The position numbers and the translations under genes are program-made. From an uncultured Pelagibacteraceae bacterium (GTDB taxonomy: Bacteria; Pseudomonadota; Alphaproteobacteria; Pelagibacterales; Pelagibacteraceae): a DNA stretch of 64,000 bases. Location of the stretch: positions 1-64,000 of the forward strand of contig CACIYQ010000004.1 in assembly GCA_902590915.1 (NCBI GenBank), written 5' to 3'. Shown here piece by piece: positions 5,372 to 15,491 of this stretch (the stretch's first letter is position 1; the number at the start of each line of letters is the position of its first letter). The notes under the pieces were generated by a model, which ran no database searches, had not been told where the DNA came from, and saw nothing but the letters and a program-made list of their open reading frames with translations.

Positions 5372-5596
5372 ATGAATTATTTAGACTTAAGCAAAATATC
5401 AAAGGTAATTGAAGACCCCAATATAAAAATAGAAACTTCAAAAAATCTTAACTCTAATGTTCTTAAGCAAAGAGTTAATGTTGATATCTTGAAGCAGAGA
5501 CTACTTAAACAAAAAAAAAAGGATAGATTTAAAAGAACAATAATTCTGTCTACTGTTGTCGTATCATTAAGTGCCTTGACAATGTTAACTTATTAA
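5372..5596 (+). CDS. Small basic single-TM protein (paralogue of the 15554-15754 gene)
   Basis: This 74-residue protein has a polar N-terminus, a very basic middle with the pattern VDI...R...KKK, and one C-terminal hydrophobic helix (IILSTVVVSLSALTML). It resembles the 66-residue protein at 15554-15754 in length, layout and the DI...R...KKK...S pattern, which argues that both are real genes. Likely topology is N-in with a C-terminal anchor; function unknown. Its last 12 bases overlap the end of the convergent Ldh2-family gene. Confidence 0.6.
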   Translation: MNYLDLSKISKVIEDPNIKIETSKNLNSNVLKQRVNVDILKQRLLKQKKKDRFKRTIILSTVVVSLSALTMLTY

Positions 5597-6604
5597 ATCT
5601 TTTAAATCTTTTTTAATTATACTTGGAATATAAATTTCTTTATTTAGATTTTTTTTATATCTCAAAAACTTATTTTGACCTGGATACATTATTTCTTTTA
5701 TTCCTTTAATTTTTGGAAGTTTTTTAATTGTTCTAATATTATCTTGTATTCTTTGTTTGTAATTTTTTTGAAATAAGTTTGATTTAAAAGTAATAAATAA
5801 ATGTCCAATGTTTTGTGGCCCTGAAAAATCATCGAATGGATCTTTAACTCGACCTGCATGATTGCCTCCTGTGATCACACCACTTAAAATATCAACCATC
5901 CAAGCAAGACCTGATCCCCTAAATCCTGCAATTGGGAGCTGAACTCCAGCTAATGCTTTTTTGGCGTCATTAGTTGGTTTACCAAACTTATCTAGTGCAA
6001 CACCTTCAGGAATTTTTTGATTATTTCTTGCAGCAACTCTAATTTTTCCCCTATTGATCATAGAAATTGAAGTATCTAAAATAAAAGGAATTTTTGATCC
6101 GGTTGGAGCTCCAAAACATATAGGATTAGTTCCAAATAAACTTTTCAAGGCACCGTGAGGTGCAACTGCGGGTGGGGCATTAGTATAGATCATAGTTATC
6201 AAATTTTTTTTAACTGCTTGCTCCGCGTAATAACCTGATAATCCGTAGTGTCCACTTCCTTTGATAGCAACCATACCAATACCCATTTTTTGTGCGTGGT
6301 TGATTGCAGTTTTTATTCCAACATCAGCAGCCACAAAACCTATACTGTTATTTGCATCAACATGAGATACAGACTGAGAAATTTTTTTTACTTTAATTTT
6401 TGGTTTAGGATTAATTACTTTTTTAGAAATTCTATCACAATACATTTTAAGTCTTGATAATCCATGTCCATAGGCTCCAACCAGTTCGGCATTGATTAAG
6501 GCATTTGCTGATATGGTTGCATGCTCTTTACTTAGTCCGAACTTTAGAAAAATTTTTATTACTTTTTTTTTTAAAATAAAGGTTTTCACATTAACCTTTT
6601 CCAC
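5585..6604 (-). CDS. Ldh2/malate-lactate dehydrogenase family oxidoreductase, possible sulfolactate dehydrogenase
   Basis: The 339-residue protein belongs to the NAD(P)-dependent Ldh2 family, which includes ComC (R)-sulfolactate dehydrogenase, malate, ureidoglycolate and imine-reducing members. Visible motifs are GAYGHGLSRLKMY near the N-terminus, GSGHYGLSGYYAEQA (about residues 120-135), APHGALKSLFGTNPI, and the DILSGVITGG region late in the protein. Its start overlaps the end of tauC by 14 bases, so it is co-transcribed as the last gene of tauABC. That placement suggests it acts on an imported compound or a product of it; sulfolactate/sulfopyruvate interconversion is the best guess. Confidence 0.8.
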   Translation of the reverse strand: MEKVNVKTFILKKKVIKIFLKFGLSKEHATISANALINAELVGAYGHGLSRLKMYCDRISKKVINPKPKIKVKKISQSVSHVDANNSIGFVAADVGIKTAINHAQKMGIGMVAIKGSGHYGLSGYYAEQAVKKNLITMIYTNAPPAVAPHGALKSLFGTNPICFGAPTGSKIPFILDTSISMINRGKIRVAARNNQKIPEGVALDKFGKPTNDAKKALAGVQLPIAGFRGSGLAWMVDILSGVITGGNHAGRVKDPFDDFSGPQNIGHLFITFKSNLFQKNYKQRIQDNIRTIKKLPKIKGIKEIMYPGQNKFLRYKKNLNKEIYIPSIIKKDLKDLIS

Positions 6605-8516
6605 GCCAAGGAATAGTTTTGTCTATAATTTTTCTTAAAGTAATATCAAATAACAAACCAAGAAGACCCATAATAATTATCGTTATCCAAATAACCTCCC
6701 ATTGAAAGTATTTTTTTGCAACATTCTCAACAAAACCAATACCAGTAGTCCCAGCTAAAAATTCTGCTGCAACTAATGTTCCCCAGCACATTCCAACTGC
6801 AACTCTAATTCCAGTTAAAATTTCTGGGAGTGAATTTGGAAAAATCACATGTCTTAAAATTTGTTTTTTTGAAGCCCCTAATGAGTGAGCAGCATGAATT
6901 TTTGAAAGTTGAGTTCCTGAAGCCCCAGCTCTAGCAGAAATGATCATAATAGATAAGGAAACCATAAATAATAAAAATACTTTTCCAGAGTTATCAATCC
7001 CAAGTACAGAAATAATCAAAGGTGCCCAAGCAAGTGGAGGAACAGGTCTATATAACTCTATTAATGGATCAAAGAAACCTCTTGCAAATCTATTTAGACC
7101 CATAAATAATCCTAATGGAACACCAATAATAATTCCAAACACTAAACCTAAAAATACCCTCATAAAAGAGTCCCAGATATGTCCGTACGGAACGGGAACT
7201 TTAAATAATTTAAAATCACCAGTTACAACTTTTAAGACATTACTTTTAAAATTCTCTTTAACAATTCCATCTTTAGTATGAACTGGATATTCCCCTGGTA
7301 AGATATCTGCTATCAAATCTGGTAAAATGAATCCAATCATTTTACTTACATCAACCATTTCAATCCATAAAAGAGGAACATTTTTATATCCAACACTTGG
7401 TTTAGACAGCAACACAAACTTATTAAAAGTATCAGATGGTTTCGGTAACCACCTTCCTGAACCTTGTTCAGAACAAGTTGCTCCACTAGCTACAATTGTT
7501 CCTGAAGGAAATAAAAGGATATCAATTAATCTCAATCCACCTTGTTCTTTTTTTTGTAAACCATCAAATTCTATGATAGCTGCTTGCATTTCATTTAATG
7601 CATTTGGAGGATAAATACTTGCAAATTCAATACGTCTTGCAATTTTAACAATATTTTTTGCATAGTCAGATGTTATCTCCTCACTATCATCTAAACCTTT
7701 CCTATAAGCTTTAATATCATCTTTTAATTTTTTTATTGCACTTTTGAATAATGGATTATGATTTCTTAATTTAAAAAACTTGTCATTTATTAAACTTAGT
7801 TCTTTTGCTGCTGTATGAAATTTTAAACCTTTTTTAGTTTGTGGTGCTGTTGGTATTTCAATAGTATTTTCAATAGATCCACTTCCAGAGTCTATTGTGA
7901 CAATTCCCCAACCACCTTGTTCATCAATAAGTTTTTGTCTTTCAATTTTTTGAGCATCTGTCTCAAAAGGATAATCCTTCTTTTGAAAATTATTACTAAG
8001 CTGCTCTATTTGTTCAGTCATTTCTTGAATTTTAATTTTGGTATCCATTTCTATTAATTCTTCGCTAGTTAAGAGTGGAATTAATTTAGAGGTTCTATCA
8101 ATGTAGCTTACAAGGATTGTTTTTTGTTGATCATTTAGATCTTGAGATCCTTTTATTTCATTTGAAATCTTTTTAAGATTTTTATTTTCAATTTTAATAA
8201 TGTATGTGCTTTTGAATTCTCTTTCTTCAATAGGGAACTGATATTTTAAGCCTAATAAAGATTCGTTTATTTTAGCAACTTGACATAATTCATTTGCGGA
8301 TTTTGGATAAAAACCTTTTGCAATGTCCCATGAATAATAAAGCCATAGCATTAGAATTGCACTACTTCCAACGATTACCCAGTGTGTTCCACCTTTAGCT
8401 CTTTCTGGATTCCCAAAAACAGCATCAACTTTTTCAGTTTTGATTAATCTTCTTCCATAAAGTATGCATCCAATAATAGATACTATAATTAGAATTGTTA
8501 CAAATTGGGTTAACAT
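6591..8516 (-). CDS. tauC: Taurine/sulfonate ABC transporter permease with a large N-terminal extension
   Basis: At 641 residues this is more than twice the usual TauC length (about 270). The last 200 residues are a normal permease: several TM helices and the EAA loop (AAHSLGASKKQILRHVIFP) that contacts the ATPase. In front are two TM segments (about residues 1-20 and 45-66) and some 375 mostly hydrophilic residues with helical, charged stretches (about 100-310), likely facing the periplasm. The frame is unbroken across the junction, so this looks like a true architecture and not a sequencing artefact. It starts one base beyond the tauB stop and overlaps the Ldh2-family gene. Confidence 0.9.
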   Translation of the reverse strand: MLTQFVTILIIVSIIGCILYGRRLIKTEKVDAVFGNPERAKGGTHWVIVGSSAILMLWLYYSWDIAKGFYPKSANELCQVAKINESLLGLKYQFPIEEREFKSTYIIKIENKNLKKISNEIKGSQDLNDQQKTILVSYIDRTSKLIPLLTSEELIEMDTKIKIQEMTEQIEQLSNNFQKKDYPFETDAQKIERQKLIDEQGGWGIVTIDSGSGSIENTIEIPTAPQTKKGLKFHTAAKELSLINDKFFKLRNHNPLFKSAIKKLKDDIKAYRKGLDDSEEITSDYAKNIVKIARRIEFASIYPPNALNEMQAAIIEFDGLQKKEQGGLRLIDILLFPSGTIVASGATCSEQGSGRWLPKPSDTFNKFVLLSKPSVGYKNVPLLWIEMVDVSKMIGFILPDLIADILPGEYPVHTKDGIVKENFKSNVLKVVTGDFKLFKVPVPYGHIWDSFMRVFLGLVFGIIIGVPLGLFMGLNRFARGFFDPLIELYRPVPPLAWAPLIISVLGIDNSGKVFLLFMVSLSIMIISARAGASGTQLSKIHAAHSLGASKKQILRHVIFPNSLPEILTGIRVAVGMCWGTLVAAEFLAGTTGIGFVENVAKKYFQWEVIWITIIIMGLLGLLFDITLRKIIDKTIPWRGKG

Positions 8517-9313
8517 TAATTTTCTTTTCCCATTATTTCTTCTTCCATGTTCCAGATCATGGATAAAATTTCTTCCCTAGTAGACGAAAACTCTTTATTT
8601 TTTTTTATTTCTCTCAAATCTTGTTTAAGACCCATTTCTGCAAAAGGAAGATTATATTCTTTATGTATTCTTCCTGGTCTAGGTGCCATTACATATAATC
8701 GTTCTCCAAGTAACAGAGCTTCCTCAACAGAGTGGGTAATTAGAATGATAGTTTTTCCGGTTTCTCTCCAAATTTTTAAAACTAAAGACTGCATTTTCTC
8801 TCTAGTTAACGCGTCTAACGCACCTAACGGCTCATCCATTAAAATTAGTTCAGGATCATTTATTAAACACCTTGCAAGCGCCACTCTCTGCTGCATACCT
8901 CCTGATAATTGGTAAGTAGGAGTGTTCCCAAATCCTTTTAAACCAACTATATCTAACCATTCCTCAACTTTTTTTGCTGTTAATCCTGGATCTTTTTTTT
9001 TCATCCTAAGACCGAAGTTCACATTTTCGGCAACTGTTAACCATTCGAATAACGCGCCTTGCTGAAATACCATTCCTCTTTCAACACCAGGTCCATCAAT
9101 TTCATTATTATTTAATGTAATTTTTCCTGAAGTAGGTCTTAAAAAACCTGCAGTGATATTAAGTAATGTTGTTTTTCCACATCCTGAAGGACCAAGAACT
9201 GTAAGCAGTTCTCCTTTTTTTAAAGTAAAACTCACATCCTTTAATGCATGAATCGTTTCTCCTTTTGGAGTTTTAAAAATCATGTTTAGATTTTGAGAAA
9301 CAAGATCACTCAT
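8516..9313 (-). CDS. tauB: Taurine/sulfonate ABC transporter ATP-binding protein
   Basis: This 265-residue ABC ATPase drives the tau importer. Walker A GPSGCGKTT (about residues 43-51), the Q-loop region GMVFQQGALFEW, signature LSGGMQQR, Walker B LILMDEP and the H-loop THSVEEA are all intact. The VARCL-style and PGRIHKEYNLPF region is typical of the nitrate/taurine/SSU subfamily. An AAGGA Shine-Dalgarno lies about 6 bases before the ATG, downstream of a terminator-like hairpin that separates it from tauA. Confidence 0.95.
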   Translation of the reverse strand: MSDLVSQNLNMIFKTPKGETIHALKDVSFTLKKGELLTVLGPSGCGKTTLLNITAGFLRPTSGKITLNNNEIDGPGVERGMVFQQGALFEWLTVAENVNFGLRMKKKDPGLTAKKVEEWLDIVGLKGFGNTPTYQLSGGMQQRVALARCLINDPELILMDEPLGALDALTREKMQSLVLKIWRETGKTIILITHSVEEALLLGERLYVMAPRPGRIHKEYNLPFAEMGLKQDLREIKKNKEFSSTREEILSMIWNMEEEIMGKEN

Positions 9314-9334
9314 AGCGTCCTTACATTAGAAGTC

Positions 9335-9377
9335 TTTTAAAAAAAATAGGCACTAATGTTTAAATCAGTGCCTATTT
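9335..9377 (-). terminator. Terminator-like hairpin between tauA and tauB
   Basis: On the minus strand, bases 9377-9367 pair perfectly with 9354-9344 (11 bp, loop 12) and are followed by a run of U from 9343 leftward. It lies between the tauA stop and the tauB start, so it should stop part of the transcripts and leave tauA mRNA in excess over the permease and ATPase genes. Confidence 0.8.
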
Positions 9378-9399
9378 AAAAAGTTTTAAATCTTTAAAA

Positions 9400-10341
9400 T
9401 TACAAAGGTAAGAAACTTGTATCTACGTTTCCCTTTGGAGTTCCCATTCCATCTAAGAAACCACTTAGATTACCATTAGTCATAGATTTTTCTGTCTCTT
9501 CTGGCGTTAAGAATTTAAATCCATCTAAAGTACCTTTCATTTTTCCTACGTCCATTGCAGATGCTTTAGACATAGAATTCATATCACTTTTACCAGAGTT
9601 GTATCTTGCATTAGCTTCATGAGTAACTTCAACAAAAGTTCTTACCATACCAGGATTTTCATTCATAAACTTATTAGTCACAGAAGTAATATCTATACCC
9701 ATAATACCTCCAGCTTTAGCTTCATCAACTGAAATTAATCTAGAACCAACTTCTGTAGCCGCTGCAATTGAATTACCACCAAATAAACATGCCATTGCAA
9801 CATCACCACTTACTAAAGCCGCAGCTCCATCTTCTGGAACCATATCAATAACAGTCATTTTACTTGGATCAGCACCAACAATTTCCATACTTGCAGTAAA
9901 AACATAATCAGCCATAGTACCTAAAGGCACTGCAACTTTTTTACCCTCTAATTCAGAAGCGTTTGCTTTTGTAATACCAGAAGCGTTTGATGTAACACAT
10001 GTAGTTCCACCCATTCCATATTCCATTGCTATATCAATTAGTTTTATAGGCGCATTGGATTTTACAGCATTGATAAATGGCACTAATCCTTGTGAGTAAG
10101 AAATATCAATATCTCCTGCTAACATGGCTTCTGTCATTTCTACGCCAGTATTGAAGCTTGTCCATTTTACTGGAACACCTAAAGCTTTTGAGTAATTTCT
10201 CTTCATCATGTCCTCTAAATTTGGACTTGGCCATTCTAGAAAATATGCAACTCTAACTTCTTTTGCTGCTGAATTTGCAACTGAAATAGAAAGGTTAAGC
10301 GCAAATATAGATCCTAGAATAAAAGTTAATAATTTTTTCAT
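9400..10341 (-). CDS. tauA: Taurine ABC transporter periplasmic binding protein
   Basis: The 313-residue protein has a clear Sec signal peptide (cleavage near SVANSA-AKE, about residue 25). It is followed by the EVRVAYFLEWPSPN start of a TauA/SsuA-type binding domain, the GDIDISYSQG ligand-loop motif and the EGKKVAVPLGTMADY segment. It would capture taurine or a related sulfonate in the periplasm. It is the first gene of tauA-tauB-tauC-Ldh2, has a strong Shine-Dalgarno (AGGGGA) 5-6 bases from ATG, and is followed by a terminator-like hairpin. The ligand is inferred from family and neighbours. Confidence 0.92.
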   Translation of the reverse strand: MKKLLTFILGSIFALNLSISVANSAAKEVRVAYFLEWPSPNLEDMMKRNYSKALGVPVKWTSFNTGVEMTEAMLAGDIDISYSQGLVPFINAVKSNAPIKLIDIAMEYGMGGTTCVTSNASGITKANASELEGKKVAVPLGTMADYVFTASMEIVGADPSKMTVIDMVPEDGAAALVSGDVAMACLFGGNSIAAATEVGSRLISVDEAKAGGIMGIDITSVTNKFMNENPGMVRTFVEVTHEANARYNSGKSDMNSMSKASAMDVGKMKGTLDGFKFLTPEETEKSMTNGNLSGFLDGMGTPKGNVDTSFLPL

Positions 10342-10551: not shown

Positions 10552-11898
10552 ATGAGCTCAGAGAATAGAACTTCAGTACCAAATTCTTTAAATGAACATT
10601 GGATGCCATTTACATCCAACAAAGATTTTAAGGCTAACCCAAGGTTAATAACTGAAGCAAAAGGAGTTTATTTAAAAACTCATCATGGAAAAACGCAAAT
10701 TGATGCGAGTTCTGGATTATTTTGTAATCCTTTAGGTCATGGCAGGAAAGAAATAACTGAAGCCGTAACCAAACAATTAGATACTTTAGATTATGCACAA
10801 CCTTTCCAACAAGGCTTTGGTGGATCTTTTGAGTTAGCTACGAAAATTTCAAAACATACTCCAGGAAACTTAAATAAAATGTTCTATACAATTTGTGGAT
10901 CAACAGCTGTTGAAACAGCGATTAAAATTGCAGTCGCTTATCACAGAGCAAGAGGTAATGCTCATAGGTTCAGATTTGTGGGTCGTGAGCGTGGATACCA
11001 TGGCATGAATATAGGGTGTGTTTCTGTTGGAGGAATGATTAACAACGTAAAAACTTTTGCAAGCATTTTAATGCCTGGCGTTCAACATATGAGACATACT
11101 CATTTACCTGAACATAAATTTGTTAGTGGTCAGCCAGAAACTGGTGCAGATTTAGCAGACGACTTAGAAAGAATAGCGACCAACTTTGGTCCTGAGAATA
11201 TTGCAGCATGTATTGTTGAACCAATCGCTGGATCAACTGGAACCTTAGTACCACCAAAAGGTTATTTGCAAAAATTAAGAGCGACTTGTGACAAGCATGG
11301 TATACTTCTGATTTTTGATGAGGTAATCACAGGTTGGGGCAGAACAGGTTCTTCATTTGCAAGTCACGAGTTTGGAGTTACTCCAGACATAATGACTATG
11401 GCTAAAGCAACCACTAATGGTGTGGTCCCTATGGGTGTGGTTGCTTGTAAAGATGAAATTTATGATGCCGTCATGGATGCTTCTCCTATGGGTTCAGTAG
11501 AATTATTTCATGGCTACACTTATTCAGGAATACCTGTTGCTGTAGCTGCAGCTCTAGCAGTTCAGGATATTTTTGAAAAAGAGGACATTTTTGAAAGAGC
11601 AAAAAATTTAGCTCCTTATTTTCAAAAAGGATTATTTTCACTTCAAGACTTGGAAGCAGTGGAAAATATCAGAGGATATGGAATGATGGGTGGAATTGAT
11701 ATTAAATTAAATTCAAAACCAGGTAAAGCAGGTTATGAAACTTTTAAAGCTTGTTACGAAGCAGGAGTAAATTTCAAAGCTACTGGTGACTGTTTGATTA
11801 TAGCTCCTCAGTTTATATGTGAGGAAAAACATATAGATGAAATTATCGACAAATTAAGAACAGGTATAACTAATTATCAAAAAAACCAAAAAAATTAG
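10552..11898 (+). CDS. tpa: Class III aminotransferase, probably taurine:pyruvate aminotransferase
   Basis: The 448-residue PLP enzyme shows the class III motifs: CGSTAVETAIKIA (phosphate-binding), LLIFDEVITGWGRTG with the PLP-ring Asp, and the Schiff-base Lys in MAKATTNG (about residue 286). With divergent tauABC and a downstream alanine dehydrogenase, the natural reading is taurine + pyruvate to sulfoacetaldehyde + alanine. Close relatives use beta-alanine, GABA or putrescine, so specificity is inferred from context. The ATG follows an AT-rich leader with no strong Shine-Dalgarno. Confidence 0.85.
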   Translation: MSSENRTSVPNSLNEHWMPFTSNKDFKANPRLITEAKGVYLKTHHGKTQIDASSGLFCNPLGHGRKEITEAVTKQLDTLDYAQPFQQGFGGSFELATKISKHTPGNLNKMFYTICGSTAVETAIKIAVAYHRARGNAHRFRFVGRERGYHGMNIGCVSVGGMINNVKTFASILMPGVQHMRHTHLPEHKFVSGQPETGADLADDLERIATNFGPENIAACIVEPIAGSTGTLVPPKGYLQKLRATCDKHGILLIFDEVITGWGRTGSSFASHEFGVTPDIMTMAKATTNGVVPMGVVACKDEIYDAVMDASPMGSVELFHGYTYSGIPVAVAAALAVQDIFEKEDIFERAKNLAPYFQKGLFSLQDLEAVENIRGYGMMGGIDIKLNSKPGKAGYETFKACYEAGVNFKATGDCLIIAPQFICEEKHIDEIIDKLRTGITNYQKNQKN

Positions 11899-11925: not shown

Positions 11926-13044
11926 ATGAAGATAGGCGTACCAAAAGAAATTAAACCTCAAGAAACTCGAATAGGTTTAACACCCGAAAGTGTTAAAACT
12001 TTAGTTAAAGAAGGTCATGAAGTTTTGATTGAAAATAATGGTGGATTTGAAGCTGGATTTGAAAACGAACAATACATTAAAGCTGGTGCAAAAATTACTA
12101 ATTCAGCAGAAGATATATTTAATGATACAGAAATAATAGTTAAAGTTAAAGAACCTCAAAAGGTTGAAGTAAACATGATAAGAGAAAATCAAATTGTGTA
12201 TACCTATCTTCACTTGGCAGCTGCGAGAGATTTAACAGAGGGTTTGATTAAATCAAAAAGCATAAATATTGCCTATGAAACTGTGACAGATGATAATGGA
12301 AGATTACCATTGCTTGCACCAATGAGTGCTGTTGCGGGAAGAATGTCAGTTCAAGCTGGAGCTCATTGTTTAGAAAAAAATCAAAAAGGTAGAGGTGTAT
12401 TATTAGGGGGAGCGCCTGGTGGGGAACCAGCTAACGTATTAATTCTTGGAGGAGGTGTGGTTGGAGAGAACGCTGCGATAATAGCCACGGGTATGAAAGC
12501 AAAAGTTCATATTGTCGACAAATCTGAAGAACGGTTAAAACAATTAGTTGAAATTTTTGGTGATAAAATAATCCCTCAACAAACTGATAAAACTGATCTA
12601 AATAAATTGGTTGCTGAAATTGATTTATTAGTAGGTGGGGTGTTGATCCCTGGAGCAGAAGCACCAAAATTGATTACAAAAGAAATGATAAAAACAATGA
12701 AAAGAGGATCTGTTATTGTAGATGTTGCCATAGATCAAGGTGGATGTGTGGAAACAAGTAAACCAACTACGCATGGAGATCCAACCTATATTGTTGATGA
12801 CGTAGTCCATTATTGTGTAGCTAATATGCCAGGTGGAGTTCCAAGAACTTCTACTTTTGCGCTAAATCAAGCAACTCTTCCTTTTTTAGTAAAACTTGCA
12901 AACAAAGGTTACCAAAAAGCTCTTGGTGAAGATAAAAATTTTTTAGCTGGATTAAATGTACATAAAGGAATGGTTACATATAAAGCAGTCGCAAATGCGT
13001 TTGGACATAATTATGTAGATCCAGGAGAAGCTGTAAAACATTAG
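11926..13044 (+). CDS. ald: Alanine dehydrogenase
   Basis: At 372 residues this matches full-length Ald. The start MKIGVPKEIKPQETRIGLTP, the pyruvate-site region VYTYLHLAAA and the dinucleotide-binding loop LILGGGVVGENAA (about residues 171-183) are typical. It oxidises L-alanine to pyruvate, ammonia and NADH. Next to a taurine:pyruvate aminotransferase it regenerates the amino acceptor and releases ammonium, completing the deamination half of taurine use. The gap to the aminotransferase is 27 bases and to the next gene 2 bases, so the three form an operon. Confidence 0.95.
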   Translation: MKIGVPKEIKPQETRIGLTPESVKTLVKEGHEVLIENNGGFEAGFENEQYIKAGAKITNSAEDIFNDTEIIVKVKEPQKVEVNMIRENQIVYTYLHLAAARDLTEGLIKSKSINIAYETVTDDNGRLPLLAPMSAVAGRMSVQAGAHCLEKNQKGRGVLLGGAPGGEPANVLILGGGVVGENAAIIATGMKAKVHIVDKSEERLKQLVEIFGDKIIPQQTDKTDLNKLVAEIDLLVGGVLIPGAEAPKLITKEMIKTMKRGSVIVDVAIDQGGCVETSKPTTHGDPTYIVDDVVHYCVANMPGGVPRTSTFALNQATLPFLVKLANKGYQKALGEDKNFLAGLNVHKGMVTYKAVANAFGHNYVDPGEAVKH

Positions 13045-13046
13045 AA

Positions 13047-15491
13047 ATGGAAAAAAAATTTCCATCTAGCACTAAAGTAGTTGTTGTCGGTGGCGGAGTA
13101 ATTGGTTGCTCTGTTGCTTATCATTTAACTAAGTTTGGTTGGAAAGATGTTGTATTGTTAGAAAGAGATCAGCTAACATCAGGAACAACATGGCATGCAG
13201 CAGGATTAGTGAGTCAATTAGGTCCATCAGCCTCTGTAACTAAAATTAGAAAATATACTTTAGATTTATATAAAAATTTAGAAAAAGAAGTTGATCACTC
13301 AGCTGGATTAAGACTTAATGGTGCACTTTCCATTGCACAAACTGATAGTCGTTGGCAAGAACTTAAAAGACAAGCAACAACTGCTCAACTTTATGACGTA
13401 GATTTACAAATACTCAATAAGGAAGAGATAAAAAAGAATTATCCGATAATGAGTACTGAAGACTTAAAAGGTGGACTTTTGATGCCAGGCGATGGTTCAG
13501 CTGACCCTAGTGGAGTAACTCATATGCTTGCAAAAGGTGCAAGAAAAGGAGGGGCAAAAATATATGAACACTCCCCAGTAGAAACTGTATTGAAAAAAAA
13601 TGGAAAAGTATGTGGGGTTAAAGTTAACGACCAAATTATTGAGTGTGAGTATGTTGTTTTGGCTACCGGTATGTGGTCAAGGCAAATTGGTGAAAATATT
13701 GGAGTTAGTATTCCGCTTTATCCAGCAGAACATTTTTATGTAATTACTGAACCAATAGAAAATCTTTCACCAACCCTTCCGGTTATTAGAGATTTTGATA
13801 GCAGTGTTTATTTTAAAGAGGATGCTGGAAAGCTTTTAATTGGAATTTTTGAAGGCAAATCAATTCCAGCGTTTGAAAAATCCAATAAAGTACCAGAAGA
13901 TTTTTCATTTGGCGAGTTTCCTGAAAATTTTGAACACTTTGAGCCATATTTGGAAAAATCTATGAAAAGGTTTCCAGTTCTTCAAAAGGTTGGAATTAGA
14001 AAATTTTTTGCAGGACCAGAGTCTTTCACTCCTGACACTAACTCTTTATTAGGTGAAGTTCCTGAGGTAAAAAATTTATTTGTAAGTTGTGGTTTAAATA
14101 GCATTGGAATTGGAAGTGGAGGAGGAGTAGGCAAGGTGACTGCTGAATGGCTAATGACAGGTCATATAAATGAGGATATTTTTAATTACGATGTCAAAAG
14201 ATTTCAAAAATTTCATTCTAATTTAAGTTTTATAAAAAATAGAATTACTGAGTCTTTGGGTGATTTATACGGAATGCATTGGCCATATAAACAGCACAAA
14301 ACATCTAGAAATGTAAAAATTCTACCGCATCATGAATTATTAAGAGGATTTGGTGCATGTTTCGGTGTTTCTGCGGGATATGAGAGACCGATGTGGTTTG
14401 CTCTTGATGGTGAAAAAGCAGAGTACGAATATAGTTATAATTATCAAAACTGGTATCCTTCAGTTGAATACGAAACAAGTAATACCATTAATAATGTTGG
14501 TCTTTATGACTTAACACCATTTTCAAAATTTGAAATTAAATCTGAAAAAGCGTATGAGAATTTACAAAAAATTTGCACCACAGATATTAAAAATGAAGTT
14601 GGAAAATGCACTTATACTCAAATGTTAAATGAAGATGGTGGTATTGAAACAGATCTGACTGTAGTCTGCATTGAAAGTAATCATTTTAGAATTATTAGCT
14701 CTGCAGCAACAAGAGAAAGAGATAAATTTCATATTAAAAAACATTTATTAGATGGTGTTAATCTTGATGATGTTACAGATGATTATTGTGTATTCGGTAT
14801 TTTTGGCCCCAAAAGTAGATCTTTGATGAAAGAAATAAGTAAAGACGATTTTACAAATGAAAAATTTAAGTTTGGTCATGCTAAATATATTTCAATTGAA
14901 AAAATAAAAATATGGACTCAACGATTATCATACGTTGGAGAATTAGGTTACGAATTGTACATAAAAACAACTGAAGCTAAAAAAATTTACCAACTAATTA
15001 TTGAGAAAGGAAAAAAATTTAATCTCTCTAATTGTGGAATGCATGCATTAGATACCATGCGAATGGAGAGTGGTTTTTTGCACTGGGGTCATGATATTTC
15101 TCCAGAGGAAAACCAATATCAATCAGGTCTAAAATTTACTATTAACAATCAAAAAGAAATTGATTTTATTGGCAAGCAGGCTCTTCAACTTATTAAAAGT
15201 AAAAAAATTGATAAAAGATTTGTTATGCTTACTTTAAAAGACAATAAACCAGGTTCACCATTATTACTCTGTGATGAACCTATCTATTTCAAAGACAAAA
15301 TAATTGGAAGAACAACTTCTAGTAACTATTCATTCAACTTTAAGAAAAATTTAGCTTTTGGTTATATAAAAAATATCTATTCAAATGAGGAAATCTTAAG
15401 AAATGATATTTTCATAGAAGTAGAGAAACAAAAGTACAAGGCACAACTAATACTAAAGCCTCTCAAACAGAGCAATTTTAAAAACATTTAA
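13047..15491 (+). CDS. Dimethylglycine/sarcosine dehydrogenase-like flavoenzyme with GcvT domain
   Basis: The 814-residue protein has an N-terminal FAD domain (GGGVIG at 15-20). His50 in TWHAAGL is the residue that carries covalent FAD in DMGDH and SARDH. From about residue 430 it has a GcvT-like folate domain ending in the GCV_T C-terminal barrel. Such enzymes oxidatively demethylate N-methyl amines and pass the carbon to tetrahydrofolate. Dimethylglycine or sarcosine are the known substrates, but here the gene begins 2 bases after ald in a taurine operon, so an N-methylated taurine is a candidate. No dinucleotide or catalytic gap is evident. Confidence 0.88.
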   Translation: MEKKFPSSTKVVVVGGGVIGCSVAYHLTKFGWKDVVLLERDQLTSGTTWHAAGLVSQLGPSASVTKIRKYTLDLYKNLEKEVDHSAGLRLNGALSIAQTDSRWQELKRQATTAQLYDVDLQILNKEEIKKNYPIMSTEDLKGGLLMPGDGSADPSGVTHMLAKGARKGGAKIYEHSPVETVLKKNGKVCGVKVNDQIIECEYVVLATGMWSRQIGENIGVSIPLYPAEHFYVITEPIENLSPTLPVIRDFDSSVYFKEDAGKLLIGIFEGKSIPAFEKSNKVPEDFSFGEFPENFEHFEPYLEKSMKRFPVLQKVGIRKFFAGPESFTPDTNSLLGEVPEVKNLFVSCGLNSIGIGSGGGVGKVTAEWLMTGHINEDIFNYDVKRFQKFHSNLSFIKNRITESLGDLYGMHWPYKQHKTSRNVKILPHHELLRGFGACFGVSAGYERPMWFALDGEKAEYEYSYNYQNWYPSVEYETSNTINNVGLYDLTPFSKFEIKSEKAYENLQKICTTDIKNEVGKCTYTQMLNEDGGIETDLTVVCIESNHFRIISSAATRERDKFHIKKHLLDGVNLDDVTDDYCVFGIFGPKSRSLMKEISKDDFTNEKFKFGHAKYISIEKIKIWTQRLSYVGELGYELYIKTTEAKKIYQLIIEKGKKFNLSNCGMHALDTMRMESGFLHWGHDISPEENQYQSGLKFTINNQKEIDFIGKQALQLIKSKKIDKRFVMLTLKDNKPGSPLLLCDEPIYFKDKIIGRTTSSNYSFNFKKNLAFGYIKNIYSNEEILRNDIFIEVEKQKYKAQLILKPLKQSNFKNI

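Follow-up and report, generated by a model that had tools for sequence, protein, structure and literature searches.

The gene at 13047–15491 (+ strand) of the window, the 64,000-nucleotide stretch of Pelagibacteraceae DNA analysed here, encodes an FAD- and folate-dependent N-demethylase of the DMGDH/SARDH family that stands in a taurine operon. This placement suggests that methylated taurines are used as food, with the methyl group being stripped, and the best reading is that the gene product probably demethylates N-methyltaurine to taurine and 5,10-methylene-THF. The kind of enzyme is known; what would be new is its role in a taurine operon, which on balance we expect to be correct. SAR11 are the commonest bacteria of the ocean and N-methyltaurines are known algal solutes. 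If SAR11 demethylate these compounds, a flux of carbon, nitrogen, sulfur and one-carbon units has so far been overlooked, and many marine genomes would carry a gene that has to be renamed, since it is now called sarcosine or dimethylglycine dehydrogenase. Below, DMG denotes the demethylase gene and AT the neighbouring transaminase gene, at all loci.

Domains, residues and relatives of the demethylase

DMG is an intact open reading frame that starts with ATG and encodes 814 amino acids. Four domains passed the Pfam cut-offs, in the order typical of the family: the FAD-dependent oxidoreductase domain DAO (residues 10–368, 13074–14150, PF01266, E = 3e-69), FAO_M (residues 372–424), the folate-binding aminomethyltransferase domain GCV_T (residues 429–697, 14331–15137, PF01571, E = 2e-69) and the C-terminal barrel GCV_T_C (residues 723–806, 15213–15464, PF08669), all on the + strand. 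His50 (codon 13194–13196, +, in SGTTWHAAGL) corresponds in the alignment to the His that binds FAD covalently in DMGDH and DMGO, a column that holds His in every family member aligned, and is the predicted site of flavin attachment. Both residues of the His/Tyr catalytic dyad of the family (PMC5082570) were present, as His229 (13731–13733, +; DMGO His225), invariant across 83 aligned sequences, and Tyr255 (13809–13811, +; DMGO Tyr259), also invariant in the alignment. The acidic residues of the folate domain were kept as well, with Asp536 and Glu636 aligning with DMGO Asp552 and Glu658. The first-pass annotation had called the protein a covalent-FAD demethylase with a folate domain, and as far as sequence can tell, its family and conserved residues bear this out.

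The best solved full-length relatives were rat and human DMGDH (E about 1e-137 to 1e-135) and Arthrobacter DMGO (1e-114). Mammalian DMGDH (4pab, 4p9s, 5l46) aligned over the full length and shares the domain order, covalent-FAD His, dyad and folate domain, but the human protein is only 31% identical and the window protein differs further by its taurine gene context. DMGO (1pj5) is likewise similar in domains and catalytic residues, but has 30% identity and is an oxidase of another lineage. DMGDH has HQY after the dyad His, and GPITYSPD..IGFGYG, whereas the window protein has HFY and GPESFTPD..CGLNSIG; HFY and GPESFTPD..NSIGI are shared by the clade of the window protein and its outgroup. Because these motifs differ from those of DMGDH-type paralogues and presumably resemble that of human SARDH, they may narrow the substrate to a monomethyl form, here N-methyltaurine. 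In the residues compared, no pattern clearly separated taurine-linked from betaine-linked members, or N-methyltaurine from sarcosine as substrate, and a search for convergent residues between taurine-linked lineages gave five weak columns, perhaps by mere chance.

A SAR11 genome can contain as many as three further DMGDH types, with 32–33% identity to the window type. Type a lies upstream of EtfB-EtfA-EtfQO; in one genome its position coincides with that published for PB7211_767 (PMC5069720), which identifies this genome as HTCC7211. Type c comes directly after BHMT, with genes for a Rieske oxygenase and glycine-betaine transport alongside, and the context of type b is not telling. Types a and c resemble the window protein in family and overall length, but form separate clades in an ETF or glycine-betaine context. 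The DMG clade was separate from both, and from human DMGDH. The first-pass annotation would have been contradicted by a grouping with the betaine-pathway DMGDH of the same genome, and no such grouping was seen for the clade. The window's own assembly (81% complete) yielded no second DMGDH copy for a comparison within one genome; the one candidate, its sixth GCV_T match, was a cut-off YgfZ-like frame. In some strains (L238:5276–10555, L240, L241) the Rieske oxygenase, BHMT, type c DMGDH and a small SAM methyltransferase form an operon.

Linkage to taurine genes and its distribution

The gene order in the window is tauCBA | AT-ald-DMG. AT (10552–11898, +) encodes a class III omega-aminotransferase of the AptA/Tpa type, a proposed taurine:pyruvate aminotransferase (NF052567, 579 bits against a curated NCBIfam cut-off of 500). 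It is followed by ald (11926–13044, +; TIGR00518, 475 bits, cut-off 392), whose product, alanine dehydrogenase, regenerates pyruvate, and by DMG after a gap of 2 bp. Open reading frame coordinates and profile matches thus confirmed the order first reported, and the three genes are presumably co-transcribed. Divergent from them are transport genes of the tauABC type (6591–10341, −): tauA (9400–10341) for a taurine/sulfonate-type ABC substrate-binding protein (TIGR01728/01729), tauB (8516–9313) for a taurine-type ATPase (best model NF008421) and tauC (6591–8516) for a taurine-type permease with a long N-terminal extension (NF007545, over residues 444–640), all with scores below cut-off. TauC has 641 residues, of which only the last 200 match the permease family, a length common to other SAR11 copies. 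Adjoining tauC is an Ldh_2-family gene (5585–6604), found at this locus in many SAR11 genomes, for which the best NCBIfam model was L-sulfolactate dehydrogenase with a score far under its cut-off.

The taurine reading of these neighbours is supported by Xsc, which the same 81% complete assembly encodes (964 bits, cut-off 676), making a route from taurine through sulfoacetaldehyde to acetyl phosphate plausible. A study of Antarctic waters reported Tpa and Xsc peptides associated with SAR11 (PMC10356861). The window locus shares its partners (tauABC, tpa, ald, xsc) with bacterial taurine dissimilation, but the pathway descriptions compared here lack a demethylase.

Among 80 named SAR11 records, 72 had enough DNA upstream of DMG to be informative. 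In 69 of these, ald lay upstream, usually with AT and tauABC, and at 41 loci the gap between ald and DMG was 4 bp or less. With this recurrence the AT-ald-DMG arrangement is not due to chance. SAR11 gene order is conserved anyway, however, so linkage inside one genus is weak evidence by itself. Comparisons with genus g495, which belongs with genus g1 to SAR11 family f1, and with another SAR11 family, f88, are stronger evidence. All five copies in g495 have the abutting order tauCBA | AT-ald-DMG, although DMG is only 50–51% identical. In family f88 the operon is another one, AT-DMG-Xsc, in which the genes are 6–19 bp apart and ald comes further on (L351–L354; locus L334 is cut by a contig end), and its Xsc scores 962 bits against the cut-off of 676. 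In one f88 locus a small methyltransferase-domain gene (L351:12014–12634) lies between Xsc and ald. Linkage of DMG with genes for taurine transport, transaminase, ald or xsc is therefore conserved across diverged genomes, and in several distinct arrangements; one of them places DMG between transaminase and Xsc.

The linkage varies in tightness and is not universal. In HTCC7211 DMG, at 717215, is still in the tau region, with AT at 705568, and in many SAR11 strains surface-polysaccharide genes (nucleotide-sugar epimerases, glycosyltransferases and similar) are inserted between ald and DMG, so that the two are not always on one transcript. The ald/DMG junction looks like a hot spot for variable cargo (L090, L100, L102, L108, L122, L336). 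In one strain this interval holds a short protein that is SET-domain-like by eye (L129:7564–8004), and a similar-looking protein lies beside the type c betaine operon of another (L240:5542–6021). In HTCC1062 the tau locus is intact without DMG; its orthologue, which is 65% identical and in the same clade, lies elsewhere, while in a near relative, G848, DMG starts 8 bp after ald. In PMC3160333, SAR11_1173, SAR11_1221 and SAR11_1253 of HTCC1062 are named bhmT, sardh and dmgdh, the names being predictions. In genome G836, BHMT, the orthologue and type a lie at 1126, 1167 and 1194 kb, respectively. This spacing fits these three genes, and we therefore matched the orthologue by position to SAR11_1221. 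At L067 an off-locus copy comes after an Fe(III)-type ABC transporter, and its end is overlapped by a TauD/TfdA-family dioxygenase gene (L067:6326–7117) that scores below the cut-off of the taurine dioxygenase model.

In the tree, the f1 copies (g1 and g495) formed one clade with a support of 100, and f1 and f88 as a single clade was not rejected (p = 0.31). The basal genus g495 is entirely taurine-linked and the off-locus copies are nested at several places in the f1 clade, which suggests ancestral linkage to taurine genes and a relocation of DMG in HTCC1062. The first-pass annotation had named a distinct clade always beside tpa-ald as support for its proposal. The demethylase family, the distinct clade and the recurrent taurine linkage stood; "always" did not, as DMG is off the locus in HTCC1062 and in several other genomes whose copies are nested in the tree. 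The outgroup proved mostly betaine-linked.

Outside SAR11, both sampled genomes (G333, G358) of the Rhodobacteraceae genus g35 have xsc-pta-AT-DMG beside a divergent MocR-family regulator, which is TauR-like by position only and carries the NCBIfam name PdxR. The g35 protein fell within a group of betaine-linked proteins of Rhodobacteraceae, and a tree uniting SAR11 and g35 copies in one clade was rejected (AU p = 7e-6). The association with taurine genes therefore arose at least twice. When coordinates of demethylase and Xsc matches were compared, seven further Rhodobacteraceae genera had a two-demethylase module 3–10 kb from xsc on the same strand, in the order regulator, xsc, variable genes, HTH gene, DMG32-type demethylase, sometimes MttB, and DMG-type demethylase. 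These modules may derive from one ancestral arrangement. Two examples, L361:5163–17750 and L366:5647–14631, could represent a taurine-betaine pathway.

The DMG clade was found in 174, AT in 210 and BHMT in 80 of 247 genomes of the order Pelagibacterales. Outside the genus there are 27 carriers, and AT is present in each of them. Within the genus, DMG and AT co-occurred (Fisher p = 3e-7, a value confounded by physical linkage in incomplete assemblies), and DMG and BHMT showed no co-occurrence (p = 0.22). Many genomes have AT and lack DMG. Use of taurine thus does not need DMG, which is what one would expect if demethylation is an accessory step that feeds the pathway.

Proposed pathway and alternative substrates

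We propose that the DMG product is an N-demethylase of the cytosol devoted to sulfonated amines. Uptake of N-methyltaurine, perhaps along with N,N-dimethyltaurine, would be by the TauABC-type transporter, if its range extends to them. The covalent FAD and the His229/Tyr255 dyad would oxidise the N-methyl group to an iminium, electrons presumably passing to an acceptor, and the iminium would be handed to the C-terminal folate domain to give taurine and 5,10-methylene-THF. The adjacent transaminase would then convert taurine to sulfoacetaldehyde, forming alanine, from which Ald would regenerate pyruvate, and Xsc, encoded elsewhere in the genome, would cleave the sulfoacetaldehyde. A class III transaminase requires a primary amine, and an adjacent demethylase is therefore a sensible feeder step.

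The main alternative, which we regard as possible though rather unlikely, is a sarcosine (or dimethylglycine) dehydrogenase of glycine-betaine catabolism, its taurine neighbours reflecting conserved gene order or shared osmolyte regulation. In other alphaproteobacteria the sister and outgroup sequences, those nearest to the clade included, are mostly encoded among genes for MttB/Rieske demethylases, glycine-betaine transport or ETF. A methylated glycine was therefore probably the ancestral substrate. The window protein also carries the motif GPESFTPD..CG.NSIG, which presumably resembles that of human SARDH. The annotation of the HTCC1062 orthologue as sardh in PMC3160333 points the same way. 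However, in SAR11 two other types already accompany BHMT or ETF, and BHMT went undetected in 95 of the 147 carriers within the genus, including the single-contig genomes G828 and G830; the window's own assembly (81% complete) gave no BHMT match either. Nor does synteny explain AT-DMG-Xsc in f88 or DMG-AT-pta-xsc in Rhodobacteraceae.

The recurrent partners Xsc and tauABC, which act on sulfonates, also argue against demethylation of another N-methylated omega-amino acid, such as N-methyl-beta-alanine or N-methyl-GABA, in an operon serving several omega-amino acids. AT in SAR11, f88 and g35 was indeed best matched by the general omega-aminotransferase AptA, and in R. ruizarguesonis the order ETF-DMG-DMG-AT (47%) occurs with no taurine genes in the vicinity, but we consider this explanation improbable. 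Oxidation on the other side of the nitrogen, giving sulfoacetaldehyde and methylamine and bypassing the transaminase, has a precedent in bacterial N-methyltaurine dehydrogenases that release methylamine, and neighbouring Xsc would accept the sulfoacetaldehyde directly. A literature search of a limited collection returned nothing relevant on bacterial degradation of N-methyltaurine or dimethyltaurine. We regard this route as very improbable: all copies retain the folate domain and its Asp536 and Glu636, as expected for methyl transfer, and a transaminase gene is found close by again and again.

Demethylation of N-methyltaurine by the DMG product might also be part of a pathway for methylated taurines that is widespread but not yet described, run stepwise in some Rhodobacteraceae and only as its last step, in the taurine operon, in SAR11; we put this forward as a speculative and rather doubtful extension. 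The rhodobacteraceal set, an MttB-type methyltransferase plus two demethylases near a MocR-type regulator and xsc (L361), would convert taurine betaine to dimethyltaurine, N-methyltaurine and finally taurine.
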